DNA of 64,000 nt, taken from the NCBI RefSeq assembly GCF_000424305.1, contig NZ_KE384162.1, positions 124,001 through 188,000 on the forward strand. The letters are read 5' to 3'. Below the pieces are notes generated by a model, which saw nothing but the letters and a program-made list of their open reading frames with translations, had not been told where the DNA came from and did no database searches. The position numbers and the translations under genes are program-made. Shown here piece after piece: positions 18,150 through 59,189 of this stretch; position 1 is the stretch's first letter; each line of letters starts with the position of its first letter. Source of the stretch: Pseudobutyrivibrio ruminis AD2017 (GTDB lineage: Bacteria > Bacillota > Clostridia > Lachnospirales > Lachnospiraceae).

Positions 18150-19244
18150 ATGTCAGGTTCAACTTTTGGAAGCAGAATTACAGTTACTACTTGGGGAGAG
18201 TCACACGGCAAAGGTGTTGGTGCTGTCATAGACGGCATCCCTGCTGGGTTAAAGCTTGATGAAAGCGATATTCAAATCTATTTGGATAGGAGAAAACCTG
18301 GACAGTCCAAGTTTACAACAGCTAGAGCGGAATCTGATAAGGTTACTATTTTATCAGGTGTTTTTGAGGGAGTAACAACGGGAACACCTATTTCTGTTAT
18401 GGTAGAAAATAATGACCAGCATTCAAAAGATTATAGCAACATAGCTAAAAGTTTTAGACCAGGTCATGCAGATTATGGTTTTATAGAAAAATATGGTATT
18501 CGTGATTACAGAGGTGGCGGACGCTCATCTGGAAGAGAAACCATTGGCCGAGTTGCTGCCGGCGCTATTTGTGCAAAGCTTTTAGCAGAGCTTGGTGTTA
18601 CTGTTTGTGCATATACTAAATCTATCGGAGATATTAAAATCTATGATTTTGATTTATCTGAAAGAGATAACAATGCACTTTGCATGCCAGATCCTACTGC
18701 TGCTAAGAAAGCAGAGGAATATCTTGAGGCTTGCATGCTTAATAACGATAGCGCAGGAGGCGTTATAGAATGCTTAATTACTGGTGTGCCTGCTGGTGTG
18801 GGTGACCCGGTGTTTGATAAATTAGATGCTTGTCTTGCAAAGGCACTAGTATCAATCGGTGCTGTTAAGGGTGTTGAAATTGGAGATGGCTTCGCAGTTT
18901 CCAAAACTGTAGGCTCTATTAACAATGACAAATTCAAAATGGAAGATGGTCAGGTTACAAAGCTTACAAATCATAGCGGAGGCATATTAGGTGGTATATC
19001 TGATGGTGATGATATTATTGTCAGATGCGCAATAAAGCCTACTCCATCTATTGCTCAAGCACAGCAGACAGTTAACGAAGCTCATGAGGATACAACAATC
19101 GAAATTCATGGCAGACATGATCCTGTTATTGTACCAAGAGCGGTTGTAGTTGTGGAAGCAATGTGTGCACTTACTATTTGCGATGCAATGTTTTCTCATA
19201 TGACAGACAGATTAGATTATATTAAGGAGTTTTATAAGAATTGA
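18150..19244 (+). CDS. aroC: Chorismate synthase
   Basis: AroC makes chorismate from 5-enolpyruvylshikimate 3-phosphate using reduced FMN, the last common step to aromatic amino acids. The 364-residue protein has GESHGKGVGAVIDG near residues 15-28, DYRGGGRSSGRETIGRVAAG near residues 120-139 and RHDPVIVPRAVVV near the end, all family signatures. The ribosome binding site is GGGAGG. Its end overlaps the TTG start of tgt by 4 bases. Confidence 0.95.
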   Translation: MSGSTFGSRITVTTWGESHGKGVGAVIDGIPAGLKLDESDIQIYLDRRKPGQSKFTTARAESDKVTILSGVFEGVTTGTPISVMVENNDQHSKDYSNIAKSFRPGHADYGFIEKYGIRDYRGGGRSSGRETIGRVAAGAICAKLLAELGVTVCAYTKSIGDIKIYDFDLSERDNNALCMPDPTAAKKAEEYLEACMLNNDSAGGVIECLITGVPAGVGDPVFDKLDACLAKALVSIGAVKGVEIGDGFAVSKTVGSINNDKFKMEDGQVTKLTNHSGGILGGISDGDDIIVRCAIKPTPSIAQAQQTVNEAHEDTTIEIHGRHDPVIVPRAVVVVEAMCALTICDAMFSHMTDRLDYIKEFYKN

Positions 19245-22189: not shown

Positions 22190-24445
22190 ATGAAAGAATT
22201 CGATAAACAAAAGCATTTTTTGATGGATGTTTTTAAAAGTCAGGCCTATATTCCTATGAAGAAAAAGGAATTAGAGATTCTTCTTGACGTTGAAAAAGAC
22301 AAGCGAGGAGAATTTGCTGAGGTCCTTAAGGAATTGGTAGACGAAGGAGCAGTGGAGATTACTAAGCGCGGCAAATATCAGATACCTGAAAACAAGCAGA
22401 AATTTGTTAAGCTTAAAGACCACAAATCCAAGAAACCATCAAAGGCAGAAGCTGCCAATAGAAAGCAATCTTTAAACCAGGTTGCTAAGAATGCTAATAG
22501 ACCTAAAAATGAAAATATCGAACCTGATATCATAGGAAGATTCATTTCACATAAGGATGGATATGGATTTATAGAGGTAGATGGCAGTGATGAGGATTAT
22601 TTTGTTAGCAGAGACAACACAGGCTTTGCTATGCAGGATGATACTGTTGCTGCTGTGCTTACTTTTGGTGCGCCAGGCAAGCGTCAGGAGGCAAGAGTTA
22701 TTAGAATTATAACTCATGGTTTTTCTGATGTTGTCGGTACATACGAAAAGAGCTCAGGCTTTGGCTTTGTTGTAGCTGATAGCAATAAGTTAGATCGTGA
22801 TATCTTTATCCCAGCAGGTAAGGATATGGGCGCAGTTACTGGTCACAAGGTTGTATGTCATATTGAAGATTACGGTGATGACAGCCACAAGCCAGAAGGT
22901 GTTATTACCGAAATTATCGGTCATAAAAATGACCCAGGAGTAGATATATTATCAATAGTTCGTGGCTTTGGAATTGAACCAGAATTCCCAAATAAGGTTT
23001 TAAAGCAGGCCACTACTGTAGCTAAGCCTGTATCAGAGGCTGATATGGCTGGAAGAAATGACCTTAGAGAATTACCTATCGTCACTATTGATGGTGAAGA
23101 TACAAAGGATATAGATGATGGTGTTTCTCTTGTAATGGATGGAGAAAACTATGTGCTTGGTGTTCACATTGCTGATGTTACTAACTATGTCCAAGAATCA
23201 TCAGCACTTGATGTGGAGGCTTTAAAGCGTGGAACATCTGTATATCTTGCAGACAGAGTTATACCCATGTTGCCACACACCCTTTCAAATGGAATGTGCT
23301 CATTAAATGAAGGAGAAGATAGACTTGCTCTTTCATGTATAATGACCTTCAATCCAAAGGGCGAACTTATGGACCATGAAATCTGTGAATCTGTCATTCA
23401 CAGTAAGCATCGCATGACATACACTAACGTATATGCGATAATGACTGGGGACGAGGAAATCAGAGCACAGTACGCTGATGTTTCTGAGATGATTGACAAG
23501 ATGTATGAGCTCTCTAAGATTCTTAGAGCTAAGCGTAAGAAGAGAGGCTCAATCGATTTTGATTTCCCAGAGACTCACATTATCATTGACGAAAATGGTA
23601 AGGTGGTTGGTCTTGCACCATATGAAAGAAACGATGCTCATAAGCTTATAGAGGATTTCATGCTTGCTGCTAACGAAACAGTAGCAGAGCATTTCTCACT
23701 TATGGAGTCACCTTTTGTATATCGTGTCCATGGAGCACCAGACCCAGAAAAGATGCAGACACTTGCAAGATTCCTTGGAGCCTGTGGCTACAGCCTTAAG
23801 GGCAATAAGGACAGCATTCATCCAAAGGAAATCCAAAAGATGCTTGAGTCATTAGCTGGACATGAGGATGAAGCAGTCATTACTAAAATGACACTTCGCA
23901 GCATGCAACAGGCTAGATATGATACGGAATGTAAGGGACACTTTGGCCTTGCGGCACAGTATTATTGTCACTTTACATCTCCAATCAGAAGATATCCTGA
24001 TTTACAGATTCATCGTATTATAAAGGATCATCTTCGCGGTAGAATGAACGAGCGTAAGATTTCTCACTACGAATCAATTCTTCCACAGGTAGCTCTTGAA
24101 ACCAGCAAGCTGGAGCGTAGAGCAGAAGAATGTGAGCGTGAGGTAGACAAGCTGAAGATGGTACAGTTCATGAAGGAATTCATAGGACAGCAGTTTGAAG
24201 GAACTATATCATCAGTTACTGGCTGGGGTATGTATGTAGAGCTTGAAAACACTGTCGAAGGACTTGTACATGTATCTACACTTTATGATGATCACTATGA
24301 TTTCATCGAAGAGAATCTTACACTTGTAGGAGAACGCACAGGACGTACCTTCAAGCTAGGCCAGCCTGTAACCGTAATCCTAGATTCCGTAGACGAAAAC
24401 GCCCGTACTATTGATTTCATTCTAGAGGAGTTCCAACGTTTTTAG
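22190..24445 (+). CDS. rnr: Ribonuclease R
   Basis: RNase R is a processive 3'-5' exoribonuclease that degrades structured RNA and works with trans-translation. The 751-residue protein has an N-terminal winged-helix-like segment (1-65), two cold-shock-type domains (about 105-255), the RNB domain with the metal-site stretch TIDGEDTKDIDDGVSLV near residue 302, and a C-terminal S1 domain (about 660-745, GTISSVTGWGMYVELE). The basic C-terminal tail of the E. coli enzyme is absent. It lies in the secG-rnr-smpB-ssrA cluster. Confidence 0.95.
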   Translation: MKEFDKQKHFLMDVFKSQAYIPMKKKELEILLDVEKDKRGEFAEVLKELVDEGAVEITKRGKYQIPENKQKFVKLKDHKSKKPSKAEAANRKQSLNQVAKNANRPKNENIEPDIIGRFISHKDGYGFIEVDGSDEDYFVSRDNTGFAMQDDTVAAVLTFGAPGKRQEARVIRIITHGFSDVVGTYEKSSGFGFVVADSNKLDRDIFIPAGKDMGAVTGHKVVCHIEDYGDDSHKPEGVITEIIGHKNDPGVDILSIVRGFGIEPEFPNKVLKQATTVAKPVSEADMAGRNDLRELPIVTIDGEDTKDIDDGVSLVMDGENYVLGVHIADVTNYVQESSALDVEALKRGTSVYLADRVIPMLPHTLSNGMCSLNEGEDRLALSCIMTFNPKGELMDHEICESVIHSKHRMTYTNVYAIMTGDEEIRAQYADVSEMIDKMYELSKILRAKRKKRGSIDFDFPETHIIIDENGKVVGLAPYERNDAHKLIEDFMLAANETVAEHFSLMESPFVYRVHGAPDPEKMQTLARFLGACGYSLKGNKDSIHPKEIQKMLESLAGHEDEAVITKMTLRSMQQARYDTECKGHFGLAAQYYCHFTSPIRRYPDLQIHRIIKDHLRGRMNERKISHYESILPQVALETSKLERRAEECEREVDKLKMVQFMKEFIGQQFEGTISSVTGWGMYVELENTVEGLVHVSTLYDDHYDFIEENLTLVGERTGRTFKLGQPVTVILDSVDENARTIDFILEEFQRF

Positions 24446-24470: not shown

Positions 24471-24570
24471 AGATAGCTTGTAGTTAACAAAATATTATAA
24501 TTCTAAAGCGAAGCTTCCTATGCTGAGCGTAGAATTATAATTTTTGTTAACGTAACAAGCGAGCCAAAAC
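24471..24570 (+). repeat. Large covarying hairpin element A (core type I)
   Basis: The left arm GCTTGTAG-TTAACAA continues to ATTATAATTCTA. The right arm TAGAATTATAA-TTTTTGTTAA-CGTAACAAGC pairs with it over about 30 bp. The 3' arm carries two single-base bulges (the G and an A of CGTAA). The core at 24501-24534 is almost identical, in reverse, to that of element B (31825-31858). The right end continues GAGCCAAAAC, shared with elements C and D. It fills most of the rnr-smpB gap. Confidence 0.85.
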
Positions 24571-24586: not shown

Positions 24587-25054
24587 ATGAATAAAGAAGG
24601 TAGAAAGTTAATTGCTAATAATAAGGAGGCTTACCACGAATATTTCATGGAAGAGGAATATGAAGCAGGTATTGAGCTTCATGGAACAGAGGTAAAGTCT
24701 ATGAGACTTGGTCAGTGCTCTATAAAGGAAGCTTTTGTGCGTATAGATAATGGTGAAATGTTTATCTATCAGATGCATGTAAATCCTTATGAAAAGGGCA
24801 ACATCTTCAATCGTGACCCACTTCGTCCAAGAAAGCTACTCTTACATAAGTCAGAGATTAACCGCTTGCTTAGCAAGATTAAAGAAAGCGGTTACACAAT
24901 CGTTCCTTTAGAGGTCTATTTAAATAATGGTCTTGTAAAGGTTAAGATTGCTCTTGCTAAAGGTAAGAAGCTTTATGATAAGCGTGCTGATATTCAAAAG
25001 AAGGATATGAAACGCGAAGCAGAAAGAGATTTTAAGGTAAGGAATTTACGATAA
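24587..25054 (+). CDS. smpB: SsrA-binding protein SmpB
   Basis: SmpB binds tmRNA and delivers it to stalled ribosomes. The 155-residue protein has NKEAYHEYFMEEEYEAGIELHGTEVKS near the start and DKRADIQKKDMKREAERDF at the C-terminus, the tail that inserts in the mRNA channel. The tmRNA gene itself lies 600 bases downstream, after maf. The stop overlaps the ATG of maf by one base. Confidence 0.96.
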   Translation: MNKEGRKLIANNKEAYHEYFMEEEYEAGIELHGTEVKSMRLGQCSIKEAFVRIDNGEMFIYQMHVNPYEKGNIFNRDPLRPRKLLLHKSEINRLLSKIKESGYTIVPLEVYLNNGLVKVKIALAKGKKLYDKRADIQKKDMKREAERDFKVRNLR

Positions 25055-30796: not shown

Positions 30797-31792
30797 ATGA
30801 AAAAAGCGTTTAGATATTTTTTAATATCAATTCTTTCAATTGTTTTTACATTGATTGTAGTTGGAATCATTTATATAGTTGCTGATACACACAGCAGAAT
30901 TAAGATACAGGATAAGGAGACATATTCTACAGAAGAAGTTGAAGCTCTTATGGATGAAGCTAAGGCCCAGGGGCGAAACAGTGTATTGTCCACCATCAAG
31001 GAATCTCTTGAAAACGGAAATACGGTGATTTCTGTTCTTAAATCGTTGTATCCTGAATATATAGTTGTGGCAGCTAATTCAAAATACAATTTTGTCGCTA
31101 TCAATAATGATTTAACAAAAAATAAATTTGATATTAATAATCTTTCAGAGGATGACAATGGAAGATATGTATATTCCGATGATGGGCAGACCACATCTCG
31201 CTTTGGAATTGATGTTAGCTCTCATCAGGGAGATATTGATTGGAATGCTGTTAAAGCCGAAGGCGTTGAATTTGCTTTTATAAGAGCGGTTTACAGAGGC
31301 TATGGTACAGGCAAGCTTGTTATAGATGAAAAATGCATTCAAAATATTGAGGGGGCACAGGCTGCTGGCATTGATGTAGGTGTTTATGTATTCTCACAAG
31401 CTATCAATCAGGATGAGGTTTTAGAAGAGGCATCTACAGTCATTGGATTGTTGGATGGATATACATTGCAGCTACCAATAGTATTTGATGTAGAAAAGGT
31501 TGCAGATAGTTCAGCTAGAACAAACGGACTTACAGTTCAGGACAGAACTGATCTTACTAAAACATTCTTAGAGACTGTTAAAAATGCAGGCTACCAGCCT
31601 ATGTTTTATCATAATACAGAAATGGGAGCCATGCTCTTAGATTTGACACAGCTTACAGAATACCCAAAGTGGTTTGCAGGCTATAACAAGGAATTCTACT
31701 GGCCATACGAATATGAGATTTGGCAGTACTCTGAAACAGGTCGTGTGGAAGGAATCAACGGAGACGTAGATTTAGATATTTGGTTACAATAA
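30797..31792 (+). CDS. GH25 muramidase (lysozyme), membrane anchored
   Basis: The protein has a basic start (MKKAFRYFLISIL) and a membrane helix or uncleaved signal (about residues 5-27). A linker of about 105 residues follows, and then a GH25 domain begins RFGIDVSSHQGDIDWNAV near residue 135. AFIRAVYRGYGTG, LPIVFDVEKV (catalytic acid) and KWFAGYNKEF follow, ending in VDLDIWLQ. It should cleave the MurNAc-GlcNAc bond of peptidoglycan outside the membrane. The ATG at 30797 lacks a clear ribosome binding site but lies 4 bases after the GNAT stop, so reinitiation is plausible. An in-frame TTG at 30773 is an alternative. Confidence 0.85.
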   Translation: MKKAFRYFLISILSIVFTLIVVGIIYIVADTHSRIKIQDKETYSTEEVEALMDEAKAQGRNSVLSTIKESLENGNTVISVLKSLYPEYIVVAANSKYNFVAINNDLTKNKFDINNLSEDDNGRYVYSDDGQTTSRFGIDVSSHQGDIDWNAVKAEGVEFAFIRAVYRGYGTGKLVIDEKCIQNIEGAQAAGIDVGVYVFSQAINQDEVLEEASTVIGLLDGYTLQLPIVFDVEKVADSSARTNGLTVQDRTDLTKTFLETVKNAGYQPMFYHNTEMGAMLLDLTQLTEYPKWFAGYNKEFYWPYEYEIWQYSETGRVEGINGDVDLDIWLQ

Positions 31793-31892
31793 AAAACACC
31801 CCATTACGGTAACAATCATAATAATTCTACGCTCAGCATAGAAAGCTTCGCTTAAGAATTATTATAGATTGTTACCTATGAGGTGTTTTTTA
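31791..31892 (-). repeat. Large covarying hairpin element B (core type I), also a bidirectional terminator
   Basis: Arms AAAAAACACC..TTACGGTAACAATCATAATAATTCT and the complementary right arm pair over about 36 bp, with A/T tracts on both sides. Read on the minus strand it has the family layout: left TAG-GTAACAA, right TTGTTAC-CGTAA. The 34-base core 31825-31858 differs from that of element A at two positions. It overlaps the stop codons of both converging genes. Confidence 0.85.
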
Positions 31893-32978
31893 TTGCAGTA
31901 ATGTCGCAGCTAGTTTGTCGTTATCGGATGGATTCATGAAGCAGAAGCGAATGTAGTTTTCACCCAAATATGGGAATGTAGAACAATCGCGAATCATGAG
32001 TCCTTTTTTTATGCATCGGTCAAACAGCTCGCCGCTAGTTAAGCCATCCTCCAATATTTTAAGAAGCATGAAGTTTCCTTCAGGTTTATATGGCTTGAAC
32101 CTAGAGCTTTCTTCAAAAAGCTTATACATACGGTCACGCTCTGATGTAATCAGGTTTCTAGTTTTGTTAATGTAATCCTTGTCTGTAAACATCAATGTTC
32201 CAGCTACTACAGCGATGGAGTTGATAGTCCAAGGATCTTTTCTTTTGTTAATTTCAGATATCAAATCTTCGTTAGAACAGATTGCATAACCTAAACGAAG
32301 TCCTGGGGAAGCAAAGAATTTCGATGTACCACGTAAAATAGCGATATTTCCATAAGTTCTTGTAAGACCTACAGCGGAAATCTTTGAAACATCCTCAGCA
32401 AATTCAACATAAGTTTCATCAACCATAACAAAGATGTGGCAGGCCATACAGGCATCTAAAATCTTACGCATATCAGCTGAACTTATAGCAGTACCGGTAG
32501 GATTGTTAGGATTGCAGATGATTACCATATCGATATCTTCTGTAAGCTTGCTGATAAAGTCTTTCGTATCAAGTACAAAATCGTTTTCCTCTTTAAGAGG
32601 ATAGTAGATTGTTTTGCCTCCAACTAAAGATATCTCTCTTTCATATTCTGAATAGGTTGGTCCTAGAATTAAAGCTTTCTTAGGATTTTCAATCTTAACA
32701 AAAAGTGAGATTAGCTCTGTGGAGCCATTGCCTACAATAACGCTTTCAGATTCGCAGCCACAGTAGTCAGCAATGGAGCCACGCAAAGAAGCATATTCTC
32801 TGTCGGGATAAGTGGTGATGCAGTCAATATGCTCCTTAATTCCTTCCTTTAATTTGGTGGAAATTCCAAGAGGATTTACGTTAGCAGAGAAGCTAATTAT
32901 ATCCTCCTTTTTTATTCCATATATTTTTTCAATTTTTTCTAAATCGCTTCCATGAAAATGGTCTTTGTGTTTAATCAT
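31890..32978 (-). CDS. Class II PLP aminotransferase, histidinol-phosphate aminotransferase / CobD-like
   Basis: The 362-residue fold-type I PLP enzyme has ISFSANVNPLGISTKLKEGI near residue 30, VGNGSTELISLF near residue 83, CNPNNPTGT near residue 150, the PLP lysine in RGTSKFFASPGLRLGY near residue 213 and RDCSTFPYLGENYIRF near the end. The opening with HGSD and NVNPLG recalls threonine-phosphate decarboxylase CobD, while the motifs equally suit HisC. No cobalamin genes are in the window; hisH and hisF are 17 kb away. The specific reaction is therefore left open. Confidence 0.8.
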   Translation of the reverse strand: MIKHKDHFHGSDLEKIEKIYGIKKEDIISFSANVNPLGISTKLKEGIKEHIDCITTYPDREYASLRGSIADYCGCESESVIVGNGSTELISLFVKIENPKKALILGPTYSEYEREISLVGGKTIYYPLKEENDFVLDTKDFISKLTEDIDMVIICNPNNPTGTAISSADMRKILDACMACHIFVMVDETYVEFAEDVSKISAVGLTRTYGNIAILRGTSKFFASPGLRLGYAICSNEDLISEINKRKDPWTINSIAVVAGTLMFTDKDYINKTRNLITSERDRMYKLFEESSRFKPYKPEGNFMLLKILEDGLTSGELFDRCIKKGLMIRDCSTFPYLGENYIRFCFMNPSDNDKLAATLLQ

Positions 32979-49741: not shown

Positions 49742-49790
49742 CCTTCCCCCTCTGGGGGAAGGTGGCTCGAAGAGCCGGATGAGGGTACTC
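49738..49790 (+). repeat. Two-hairpin dispersed repeat, copy 2
   Basis: CCTTCCCCC / GGGGGAAGG with loop TCT, then GGCTC / GAGCC with loop GAA, then GGATGAGGGTACTC. It has the same order as copy 1 (3954-4008, reverse strand), with stem changes that keep pairing. It includes the hisH stop codon and lies before hisF. Confidence 0.75.
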
Positions 49791-51456: not shown

Positions 51457-51555
51457 AGATAGCTGGTAGGTAACAAGGATAATATTTCCTAAGGGAGACA
51501 TTCTTAGTCGACTGTGGAAATATTATACTTGTGACCGTAACTAGCGAGCCAAAAA
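51457..51555 (+). repeat. Large covarying hairpin element C (core type II)
   Basis: Left AGCTGGTAG-GTAACAA then ATAATATTTCC; right GGAAATATTAT then TTGTGAC-CGTAACTAGC, followed by GAGCCAAAAA. The core is AAGGGAGACA..AGTCGAC. It begins directly after the stop of the FliD-like gene. Confidence 0.85.
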
Positions 51556-51561
51556 GTTAAA

Positions 51562-51656
51562 AATAGCTTGTAGCTAACAATGAAAAGTATTACTCAAGGA
51601 GCAATCTCGCGACGGAGTAATACTTTTTATTGTTAGCGTAACCAGCGAGCCACAAC
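51562..51656 (+). repeat. Large covarying hairpin element D (core type II)
   Basis: Left ATAGCTTGTAG-CTAACAA then AAAAGTATTACTC; right GAGTAATACTTTTTA then TTGTTAG-CGTAACCAGC, followed by GAGCCACAACC. The core AAGGAGCAATCTCGCGACG is a variant of type II. Confidence 0.85.
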
Positions 51657-51658
51657 CT

Positions 51659-51680
51659 ATGTAACCAGCGAGCCAAAAAC
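51659..51680 (+). repeat. Solitary 3' end of the hairpin family
   Basis: GTAACCAGCGAGCCAAAAAC repeats the 3' end of element D (CGTAACCAGCGAGCCA) without any arm. It looks like a deletion remnant or duplicated end. From here to the purO promoter nothing else is seen. Confidence 0.7.
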
Positions 51681-52510: not shown

Positions 52511-52604
52511 TTGGATGAGACTGTAGGCAACAAGCTCTTAGAATTCTCAAGGGAGACATAAGTCGACCGGAGAATTACTAAGGCTTGTAGCCGTAACAGT
52601 CGGA
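52511..52604 (+). repeat. Large covarying hairpin element E (core type II)
   Basis: Left GACTGTAG-GCAACAAG then TTAGAATTCTC; right GAGAATTACTAAG then CTTGTAGC-CGTAACAGTC. The core is AAGGGAGACATAAGTCGACCG. It fills the purO-purH gap, ending 9 bases before the AAGGAGAG ribosome binding site. Confidence 0.85.
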
Positions 52605-52621: not shown

Positions 52622-53800
52622 ATGAAAGAATTGGAATTAAAGTATGGATGTAACCCTAATCAGAAGCCTTCAAGGATTTATATGGAAGAAGGCGACCTTC
52701 CAATCGAGGTTTTAAGCGGAAAGCCAGGCTACATTAATTTCTTGGACGCATTTAATGGCTGGCAGCTTGTTTCAGAGCTTAAGAAGGCTACAGGTCTTGC
52801 AGCCGCAACTTCATTTAAACACGTTTCACCAGCAGGTGCTGCTGTGGGACTTCCTCTTTCAGAAGTTGAGCGTAAGATTTATTGGTGCGATGATTTAGAT
52901 ATGGAATTTACTCCACTTGCAAATGCCTATGCAAGAGCAAGAGGTGCAGACAGAATGTCTTCATTTGGTGATTTTATTTCGCTTTCAGATGTTTGCGACG
53001 TTGCTACTGCAAAGCTTATTAAGCGTGAGGTTTCAGACGGTGTTATCGCTCCAGGCTATGAGCCAGAGGCACTTGAGATTCTTAAGGCTAAGAAGAATGG
53101 TAATTATGCAGTAATCAAAATTGATCCAAATTACGTTCCAAAGAAATTAGAGCGCAAGGAAGTATTTGGTGTAACATTTGAGCAGGGAAGAAATGAGCTT
53201 GTTATAGATGATGATTTCTTTGCAAATATCGTTACTGAAAATAAAGATTTAACAGAGCAGGCAAAGATTGACCTTGCAATTGCCATGATTACTCTTAAAT
53301 ATACACAGTCAAATTCAGTTTGCTATGTAAAGGATGGACAGGCAATCGGTATTGGCGCAGGACAGCAGTCACGTATTCACTGTACACGTCTTGCAGGACA
53401 GAAGGCAGATAATTGGTGGCTTCGTCAGTCTCCAAAGGTTTTAGGTCTTGATTTTGTTGATGGAATTAAGAGAGCAGACAGAGACAATGCAATCGATCTT
53501 TACATTGGGGAAGAGTTCGAGGATGTAATCGGCGATGATGTATGGCAGAAGACATTCAAAACACGTCCTTCAGAGTTCACTAAGGCTGAAAAGCGTGCAT
53601 GGCTTGATAGAATGACAGATGTAGCACTTGGTAGTGATGCATTCTTCCCATTCGGCGATAATATCGAGCGTGCCCACAAGTCTGGTGTTAAGTATGTTGC
53701 ACAGCCAGGCGGCTCAGTTCGTGACGATAATGTTATTGAGACATGTAATAAGTATGGAATGGTAATGGCATTTACAGGACTTCGCCTATTCCATCATTAA
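52622..53800 (+). CDS. purH: AICAR transformylase (standalone PurH C-terminal domain)
   Basis: This enzyme formylates AICAR with 10-formyl-tetrahydrofolate to FAICAR. The 392-residue protein has the catalytic Lys66-His67 in TSFKHVSPAGAAVG, YTQSNSVCYVKDGQAIGIGAGQQSR near residue 235 and an end typical of the domain (FPFGDNIERAHKSGVKYVAQPGGSVRDDNVI). It lacks the IMP cyclohydrolase half of bifunctional PurH, which is provided by the preceding purO. The arrangement is a natural split, since both reading frames are complete. Element E precedes it. Confidence 0.9.
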   Translation: MKELELKYGCNPNQKPSRIYMEEGDLPIEVLSGKPGYINFLDAFNGWQLVSELKKATGLAAATSFKHVSPAGAAVGLPLSEVERKIYWCDDLDMEFTPLANAYARARGADRMSSFGDFISLSDVCDVATAKLIKREVSDGVIAPGYEPEALEILKAKKNGNYAVIKIDPNYVPKKLERKEVFGVTFEQGRNELVIDDDFFANIVTENKDLTEQAKIDLAIAMITLKYTQSNSVCYVKDGQAIGIGAGQQSRIHCTRLAGQKADNWWLRQSPKVLGLDFVDGIKRADRDNAIDLYIGEEFEDVIGDDVWQKTFKTRPSEFTKAEKRAWLDRMTDVALGSDAFFPFGDNIERAHKSGVKYVAQPGGSVRDDNVIETCNKYGMVMAFTGLRLFHH

Positions 53801-58812: not shown

Positions 58813-59189
58813 TGAGAAAGAATTCAGTTAAAAATACACGTATTAACGAAGAAGTTATGCGTGAGCTTAGTAATATTATTCGTCTAGAGGTTAAGGATCC
58901 ACGCATCTCACCAGTTACATCAGTTGTATCTGTTGAGGTTGCTCCAGACCTTAAGACATGTAAGGCATACATTTCAGTATTAGGCGATGATGAAGCAGTT
59001 AAGAAGACTATAGAGGGATTAAAGAGCTCGGCAGGATTTATTCGTCGAGAGCTTGCCCACAGAATAAATCTTCGCAATACGCCTGAGATTACTTTTGTAA
59101 GTGATCAGTCAATTGCCTACGCTGCTAAGATGAGCAAATTAATCGATGAGGTTAATGCACCTCTACACGAGAGAGAAAATAATGATTAA
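58812..59189 (+). CDS. rbfA: Ribosome-binding factor A
   Basis: RbfA assists 16S rRNA 5'-end maturation. The 125-residue KH-type protein has RINEEVMRELSNIIRLEVKDPRI near the start and LAHRINLRNTPEITFVSD near residue 78. The start ATG overlaps the infB stop (TAATG), and the end overlaps nrnA by 8 bases. Confidence 0.95.
   Translation: MRKNSVKNTRINEEVMRELSNIIRLEVKDPRISPVTSVVSVEVAPDLKTCKAYISVLGDDEAVKKTIEGLKSSAGFIRRELAHRINLRNTPEITFVSDQSIAYAAKMSKLIDEVNAPLHERENND

Follow-up and report, generated by a model that had tools for sequence, protein, structure and literature searches.

A dispersed hairpin repeat with a conserved looped fold, lying mostly in sense orientation between genes of Pseudobutyrivibrio

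Behind a fliD-like gene of Pseudobutyrivibrio ruminis AD2017, two long hairpins of one design stand in tandem and are followed by a solitary copy of their 3′ end. Three further copies lie elsewhere in the window, by which we mean the whole 64,000-nucleotide stretch of DNA that was analysed. What kind of element is this, and what keeps it folded? The preliminary description took it for a structured RNA or a folded-DNA recognition element. We followed it with a covariance model built from four window copies (R1) and with a wider model built from 106 hits (R2), in its own genome (G000; 2.9 Mb, 99.8% complete) and in its relatives.

Copies in the window and their common fold

The five copies and the solitary end were confirmed where they had been reported. 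Copy C (core 51462-51545, + strand) begins 5 nt past the stop codon of a FliD_C-type gene. It is followed by copy D (core 51566-51646, +), which carries the apical variant GGAG...CGCGAC, and by the solitary 3′ end (51661-51675, +), recognized as a match to GTAACNAGCGAGCCA. Copy E (core 52519-52601, +) is flanked by ATGA and GGA and lies just 5′ of an AICARFT_IMPCHas gene starting at 52622. Copy A (core 24476-24560, +) separates rnr, which encodes an RNB domain and ends at 24445, from smpB, which starts at 24587 (neighbours assigned with Pfam). Copy B is on the − strand (core 31799-31883), in the gap of the convergent genes for a GH25 protein and an aminotransferase; with its extended outer stem, which is A/T-rich and terminator-like from its fold and its orthologues, it covers 31785-31897 (−). 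The copies thus sit among core genes. Regulation of particular genes by the hairpin is unlikely because the neighbours in the window, assigned with Pfam, are unrelated (rnr, smpB, GH25, aminotransferase, fliD-like, IMP cyclohydrolase and AICARFT). The trailing sequence shared by several copies was also recovered: copies A, C and D and the solitary end all carry GTAACNAGCGAGCCA, four matches against 0.19 expected.

The copies fold as first described, the predicted energies of A to E (with short flanks) being 5.9 to 13 standard deviations below those of shuffled sequences; the outer clamp forms in all of them, except that one of its pairs is mismatched in copy D. The element is a rod of 80-87 nt, whose length is held, made of a clamp P1, a helix P2, a long P3 and an apical P4. 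The Watson-Crick stems vary freely, and between them lie conserved non-canonical spots, an A facing GUA and tandem GA/GA, together with a constant CAA/TTG in P2. Near-invariant sites among 105 distinct copies are A7 (105), U91 (105), G90 (103), G38 (101), A39 (101), G56 (101) and A57 (104); the near-invariant elements are A7 with G90-U91-A92 opposite it, CAA/UUG, and the GA on either side of the apex. By its asymmetry the A/GUA loop singles out one of the two strands as meaningful. Two details of the first account changed: the constant block beside the variable paired stem is there but reads CAA/TTG and not AACAA/TTGT, and the division into two apical types gave way to more than two variants, nearly all of which keep a GA flanking the apex on both sides.

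Pairing is conserved through covariation, as had been proposed from the window copies. The consensus of A, B, C and E has 31 pairs, 16 of them with compensated double changes; copy D was left out because its apical part aligned badly. The larger alignment A8 holds 106 hits, of which 105 are distinct, from 92 loci; like A5 and A6 it is fitted to the covariance model and biased towards it. Over the 31 pairs of these 105 copies, 97.7% of the cells are paired, against 69% when shuffled and 33-45% when slid, and 800 cells carry double changes, against 198 in shuffles. The number of pairs with at least one double change, 28 of 31, is little above that of shuffles (24.2; reached by 2 of 500). The 61 distinct copies of the own genome gave the same picture (97.7% paired, 69.1% shuffled, 34-46% slid; double changes in 27 of 31 pairs against 22.4, and in 460 cells against 116). 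The covarying base after TAG and its partner before CGTAA also held up in the 105 copies: GC 35, CG 31, UA 19, UG 9, AU 7 and unpaired 4.

The way in which the pairs change is less usual. GU pairs are scarce (78 of 3214 cells). Among 66 close pairs of copies classed as non-orthologous, which overlap each other and include at least two that are in fact orthologous (C and D of G000 versus G006 and G023), the clamp shows 80 double changes, 7 changes to or from GU and 2 broken pairs; for all stems the figures are 213, 64 and 35. Some en-bloc replacement or templated repair may also act on the stems, since clamps change mostly on both sides at once and GU is rare. Copies were also compared in place, in 17 comparisons that were all made against G000 and in which two copies, A in G015 and E in G027, may be of other subtypes. 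Of 530 pairs, 494 were unchanged, 16 had changed yet remained paired (5 double changes, 11 single changes that kept the pair), 9 were broken and 11 gapped, and 336 of 359 unpaired positions were unchanged. Most of the stem diversity seems older than the splits among the congeners compared.

Distribution and placement

The preliminary description had looked to a covariance-model search for many intergenic copies, here and in related Lachnospiraceae. The own genome bore this out: it holds at least 63 clear copies at E≤2.5e-13, the next match being at 2e-5 (R2; among the best 150 of 1502 candidates). Relatives bore it out within the genus, 28 of 29 Pseudobutyrivibrio genomes having between 1 and at least 74 copies each (R1), but not beyond it, as none of 8 genomes from other genera of the family had copies with R1, and none of 297 sampled ones with R2 under strict filters applied to the best 15 candidates per genome. 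The hairpin-poor genomes of the genus, G020 (0), G007 (2) and G004 (8), are all small and incomplete. In the rest of the order, one weak R1 match was seen among 24 genomes, in G044 from another family; R2 gave no match there, so that this weak match stands unconfirmed. A 27-base pattern representing a single apical type, run against 84,980 species genomes, found 42 stretches, all of them in records titled Pseudobutyrivibrio, and ruminant stomach samples are named in several record titles. Two exact hairpin patterns had no match in viral contigs, and one 107-base hairpin copy had none in phage and plasmid collections. As anticipated, the copies match no Rfam family above the cut-off: over the whole window only tmRNA passed the gathering threshold, and over the hairpins there were solely scores below it, of microRNA type and one of a lactis-plasmid family. 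No title describing the hairpin repeat was found in the literature, in which subscription papers were thinly covered. The repeat therefore appears confined to one genus and not common to the family.

Genomic context was obtained for 61 of the 63 copies (C1:393823 and C5:54243 were left out), with gene calls from a simple ORF caller. No copy shared more than 15 nt with a called gene; all 61 are intergenic. In same-strand gaps, 44 copies lie in the sense orientation and 4 in the antisense orientation (p about 8e-10 if independent), and 3 of these 4 share their gap with a copy in the other orientation. Thirteen copies lie in convergent gaps, where orientation is uninformative, and none of the 61 in divergent gaps, although 1241 of the 5479 intergenic bases of the window are divergent. 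The median spacing is 33 nt past the same-strand stop codon (57 copies) and 27 nt ahead of the next start (44 copies, 30 of which have that start within 40 nt). The sense orientation in same-strand gaps favours an RNA over a strand-blind DNA signal, with gene direction and replication direction incompletely separated.

The bias is weaker in the relatives. Their 60 distinct hits, drawn from the best hits per genome plus 29 more from G011, and counted after the manual removal of 8 hits (7 distinct rows) that were weak, partial or antisense, comprise 34 sense, 10 antisense, 10 convergent, 1 divergent and 5 undetermined copies; 2 of the 60 overlap a called gene. In G011 the block of plus-strand copies takes up about 0.5 of 2.7 Mb, unlike a replichore. 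The copies listed on contig C1 of G011 leave long gaps, at about 0.66-0.99 and 1.87-2.18 Mb.

By flank classes that are rules of thumb, two surroundings recur, ATGA/GGACTA and RTA/GAG, and the 3′ flank often leads into a Shine-Dalgarno-like GGAG. By the same kind of rule, 11 of the 61 copies extend into a longer stem with a T-run and thus cap a terminator. The proposal that a conserved outer helix generally continues past the clamp was rejected, being unsupported outside terminators: such a helix scored below the 5% control level in 4 of 22 and 2 of 11 copies of the two common flank types, and in 5 of 11 terminators. The idea that the clamp is in all cases the host's own stem was likewise unsupported, because the flanks ATGA/GGACTA and RTA/GAG are conserved outside the clamp and core-less shells are no commoner than in shuffles (3 and 3 matches in the collected loci versus 3 and 11 in crude shuffles, with loops of at most 44 nt; at least one match lies inside a real copy).

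Gain, loss and rearrangement

Orthologous sites differ among congeners. Compared by eye, the gap between the fliD-like and IMP cyclohydrolase genes and that between the IMP cyclohydrolase and AICARFT genes are filled, empty or occupied by another subtype, and the rnr-smpB gap shows the same states and, in G006, a copy in the opposite orientation. The rnr-smpB gap of G003 (L221) holds a copy whose apical part appears, by eye, swollen by further hairpins. In G014 the hairpin of locus B stands in the reverse orientation between unchanged outer arms (seen by eye; its strand relative to the gene also differs in the searches). No empty site was found at this locus, where the congeners devoid of a copy have different 3′ regions. 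The order at C/D, read by eye, is D then C in G014 and G018, C, D and the solitary 3′ end in G000, and C alone in G027; G025 keeps a short remnant that fits a deletion between GTAAC repeats. Since order and content vary in this way and the G025 remnant fits a deletion, the simplest reading of solitary 3′ ends is that loss or rearrangement left them behind.

Two of the differences between filled and empty sites resemble deletions in G014 (versus L006 and L008), and L092 is a possible insertion with the 5-base repeat AAATA. Near-identical copies occur at separate places of the own genome (L013/L016, 94%; L011/L017, 95%), and the cores of L013 and L016 sit in terminators with different outer stems. 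In two nested cases, L084 and L101, whole copies fold within the arms of older ones. The element resembles a MITE in being dispersed, non-coding and variable in occupancy at orthologous sites. It is no fixed regulatory RNA, given that one site varies in occupancy, subtype and orientation between relatives, that near-identical cores cap different terminators and that copies are nested. The earlier view that selection for structure was at work, and not simple copy spread, stands for its first half: the structure is kept, but variable orthologous occupancy, near-identical cores and nesting show that the repeat also spreads.

The search for a mover covered the Y1 and reverse transcriptase families. 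The Y1 (RAYT) transposase PF01797 has no match in the own genome, has matches in 9 of the 25 genus genomes searched, and is absent from 14 other element-bearing congeners among these 25 (G004 and G007 having few copies). The reverse transcriptase PF00078 has no match in the own genome and matches in 15 of 29 genus genomes. Neither family therefore explains the copies in the own genome today.

Other repeats were noticed beside the rod. What appears, by eye, to be a second family with GGCAAGCGCGAG- and CGGGAGCA-like parts occurs in L285 at 18348-18494 (G014), in the upstream gap of L188 (G002) and in L252 (G003); in G014 it fills the same stop-to-start gap as a hairpin copy in G000. The CTTCCCCC...GGGGGAAG hairpin at window positions 49743-49761 has two matches in the window, no rarer than in 20 of 100 shuffles, and hairpins like it occur in three congeners (L277, L292, L295) at the junction orthologous to window position 59177. 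In G018, L294 carries at 1101-1174 an insertion of 72 bases, next to which the 5′ end of the tmRNA gene is repeated.

Nature of the repeat

Small non-autonomous hairpin-forming repeats such as ERIC, RUP, BOX and Correia elements are well known; a rod with several conserved loops and varying stems appears to be a distinct layout. A close likeness is to bcr1-bcr18 of the Bacillus cereus group, described in outline as group-restricted intergenic repeats, some MITE-like and some with a conserved fold, of which 84 of 165 and 62 of 155 copies lie in mRNA in two strains (PMC3446304, citing Kristoffersen 2011). By that description, the two share being group-restricted and intergenic, with carriage in mRNA proposed for the present repeat; its layout with tandem GA, A/GUA and terminator capping is described from this analysis only. 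REP or GTAG palindromes with their RAYT, as outlined in PMC3733652, are likewise many, short and extragenic and often lie downstream of genes. They are 20-40 bp long, mostly with stems of 6-9 bp and a terminal GTAG, and the phyla given there for GTAG repeats do not include Firmicutes. The present rod is 80-87 nt long; most copies contain a GTAG string, but it lies internally, in the paired basal part of the rod, and 13 of 105 have A in place of its last G. A resident Y1 transposase, as in REP/RAYT systems, and a reverse transcriptase, as in retroelements, have no match in the own genome (PF01797, PF00078). Intrinsic terminators are approached by the 11 of 61 copies that form the upper stem of one, with stem and U-run at a gene end (rule of thumb), whereas most copies lie in same-strand gaps and have neither extended stem nor U-run.

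We therefore favour, with a probability of about 0.57, an mRNA-borne dispersed hairpin repeat of the REP/MITE/bcr kind, non-autonomous and restricted to the genus, that keeps its RNA fold and acts as a terminator cap or as an mRNA-end or processing hairpin. For the mover and the RNA-level function, which we infer, the following picture is proposed. Selection would keep the folded RNA strand, and a rod placed right past the stop codon would form an mRNA-end and intercistronic structure. At gene ends it would lengthen terminator hairpins; inside operons it could be a processing or decay barrier beside the ribosome-binding site. The conserved internal loops may be read by a host protein, an RNase or the activity that copies the element. 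Landing in untranslated gaps would make the copies tolerable, and they would settle readily at hairpin tips. Several observations count against the mRNA-borne repeat: the double clamp changes and few GU pairs are unlike stepwise RNA evolution, the own genome has no Y1 or reverse transcriptase mover, pairs with double changes number 28 against 24.2, orientation is weaker in relatives, in-place double changes are few (5), and empty sites in G014 resemble deletions.

Some of these points would suit a single-stranded DNA hairpin, like the REP/RAYT, IS200/IS605-end or attC substrates, read as folded DNA by a recombinase with transcription incidental. Mobility, nesting, strand asymmetry with unpaired conserved bases, the low GU share, clamp pairs that change on both sides together and the lack of separation between gene and replication direction all fit such a substrate, which we nevertheless hold to be improbable: the Y1 transposase, the one recombinase family looked for, is missing from the own genome and from 14 element-bearing congeners among the 25 genus genomes searched, orientation follows same-strand genes, and divergent gaps of the own genome have no copies. 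A slightly fainter prospect is a mobile structured RNA that spreads by inserting into hairpin tips, of terminators or of older copies of itself, within transcripts or single strands that are transcribed; a copy could then be born with a ready-made clamp, and its loops would serve for binding or self-processing in many different mRNAs of a single genus.

More doubtful is a riboswitch- or leader-like RNA through which a ligand or protein controls the gene that follows. Conserved internal loops, a next start at a median of 27 nt and a 3′ flank often running into GGAG speak for it, against unrelated flanking genes in the window, a presence at one site that varies among congeners, and 13 of 61 copies in convergent gaps. 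We give least credence to pairing kept mainly by mutation, in which one arm of a long inverted repeat is copied from the other by template switching, covariation being a by-product in a neutral repeat. It would account for clamp double changes free of intermediates, few GU pairs, the whole-hairpin inversion at locus B in G014 and the G025 remnant between GTAAC repeats; against it, arm copying would wipe out the A/GUA loop too, which is asymmetric yet hardly ever changes, and the preference for the sense orientation is not neutral.

Small repeats of bacteria are commonly regarded as palindromic DNA. In this one genome some 60 copies preserve an elaborate rod with conserved internal loops, mostly sense past stop codons and built into terminators. 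The family is a natural setting in which to test whether a selfish repeat can become a module of mRNA ends, and how a hairpin can spread in a genome with no detectable Y1 transposase or reverse transcriptase.
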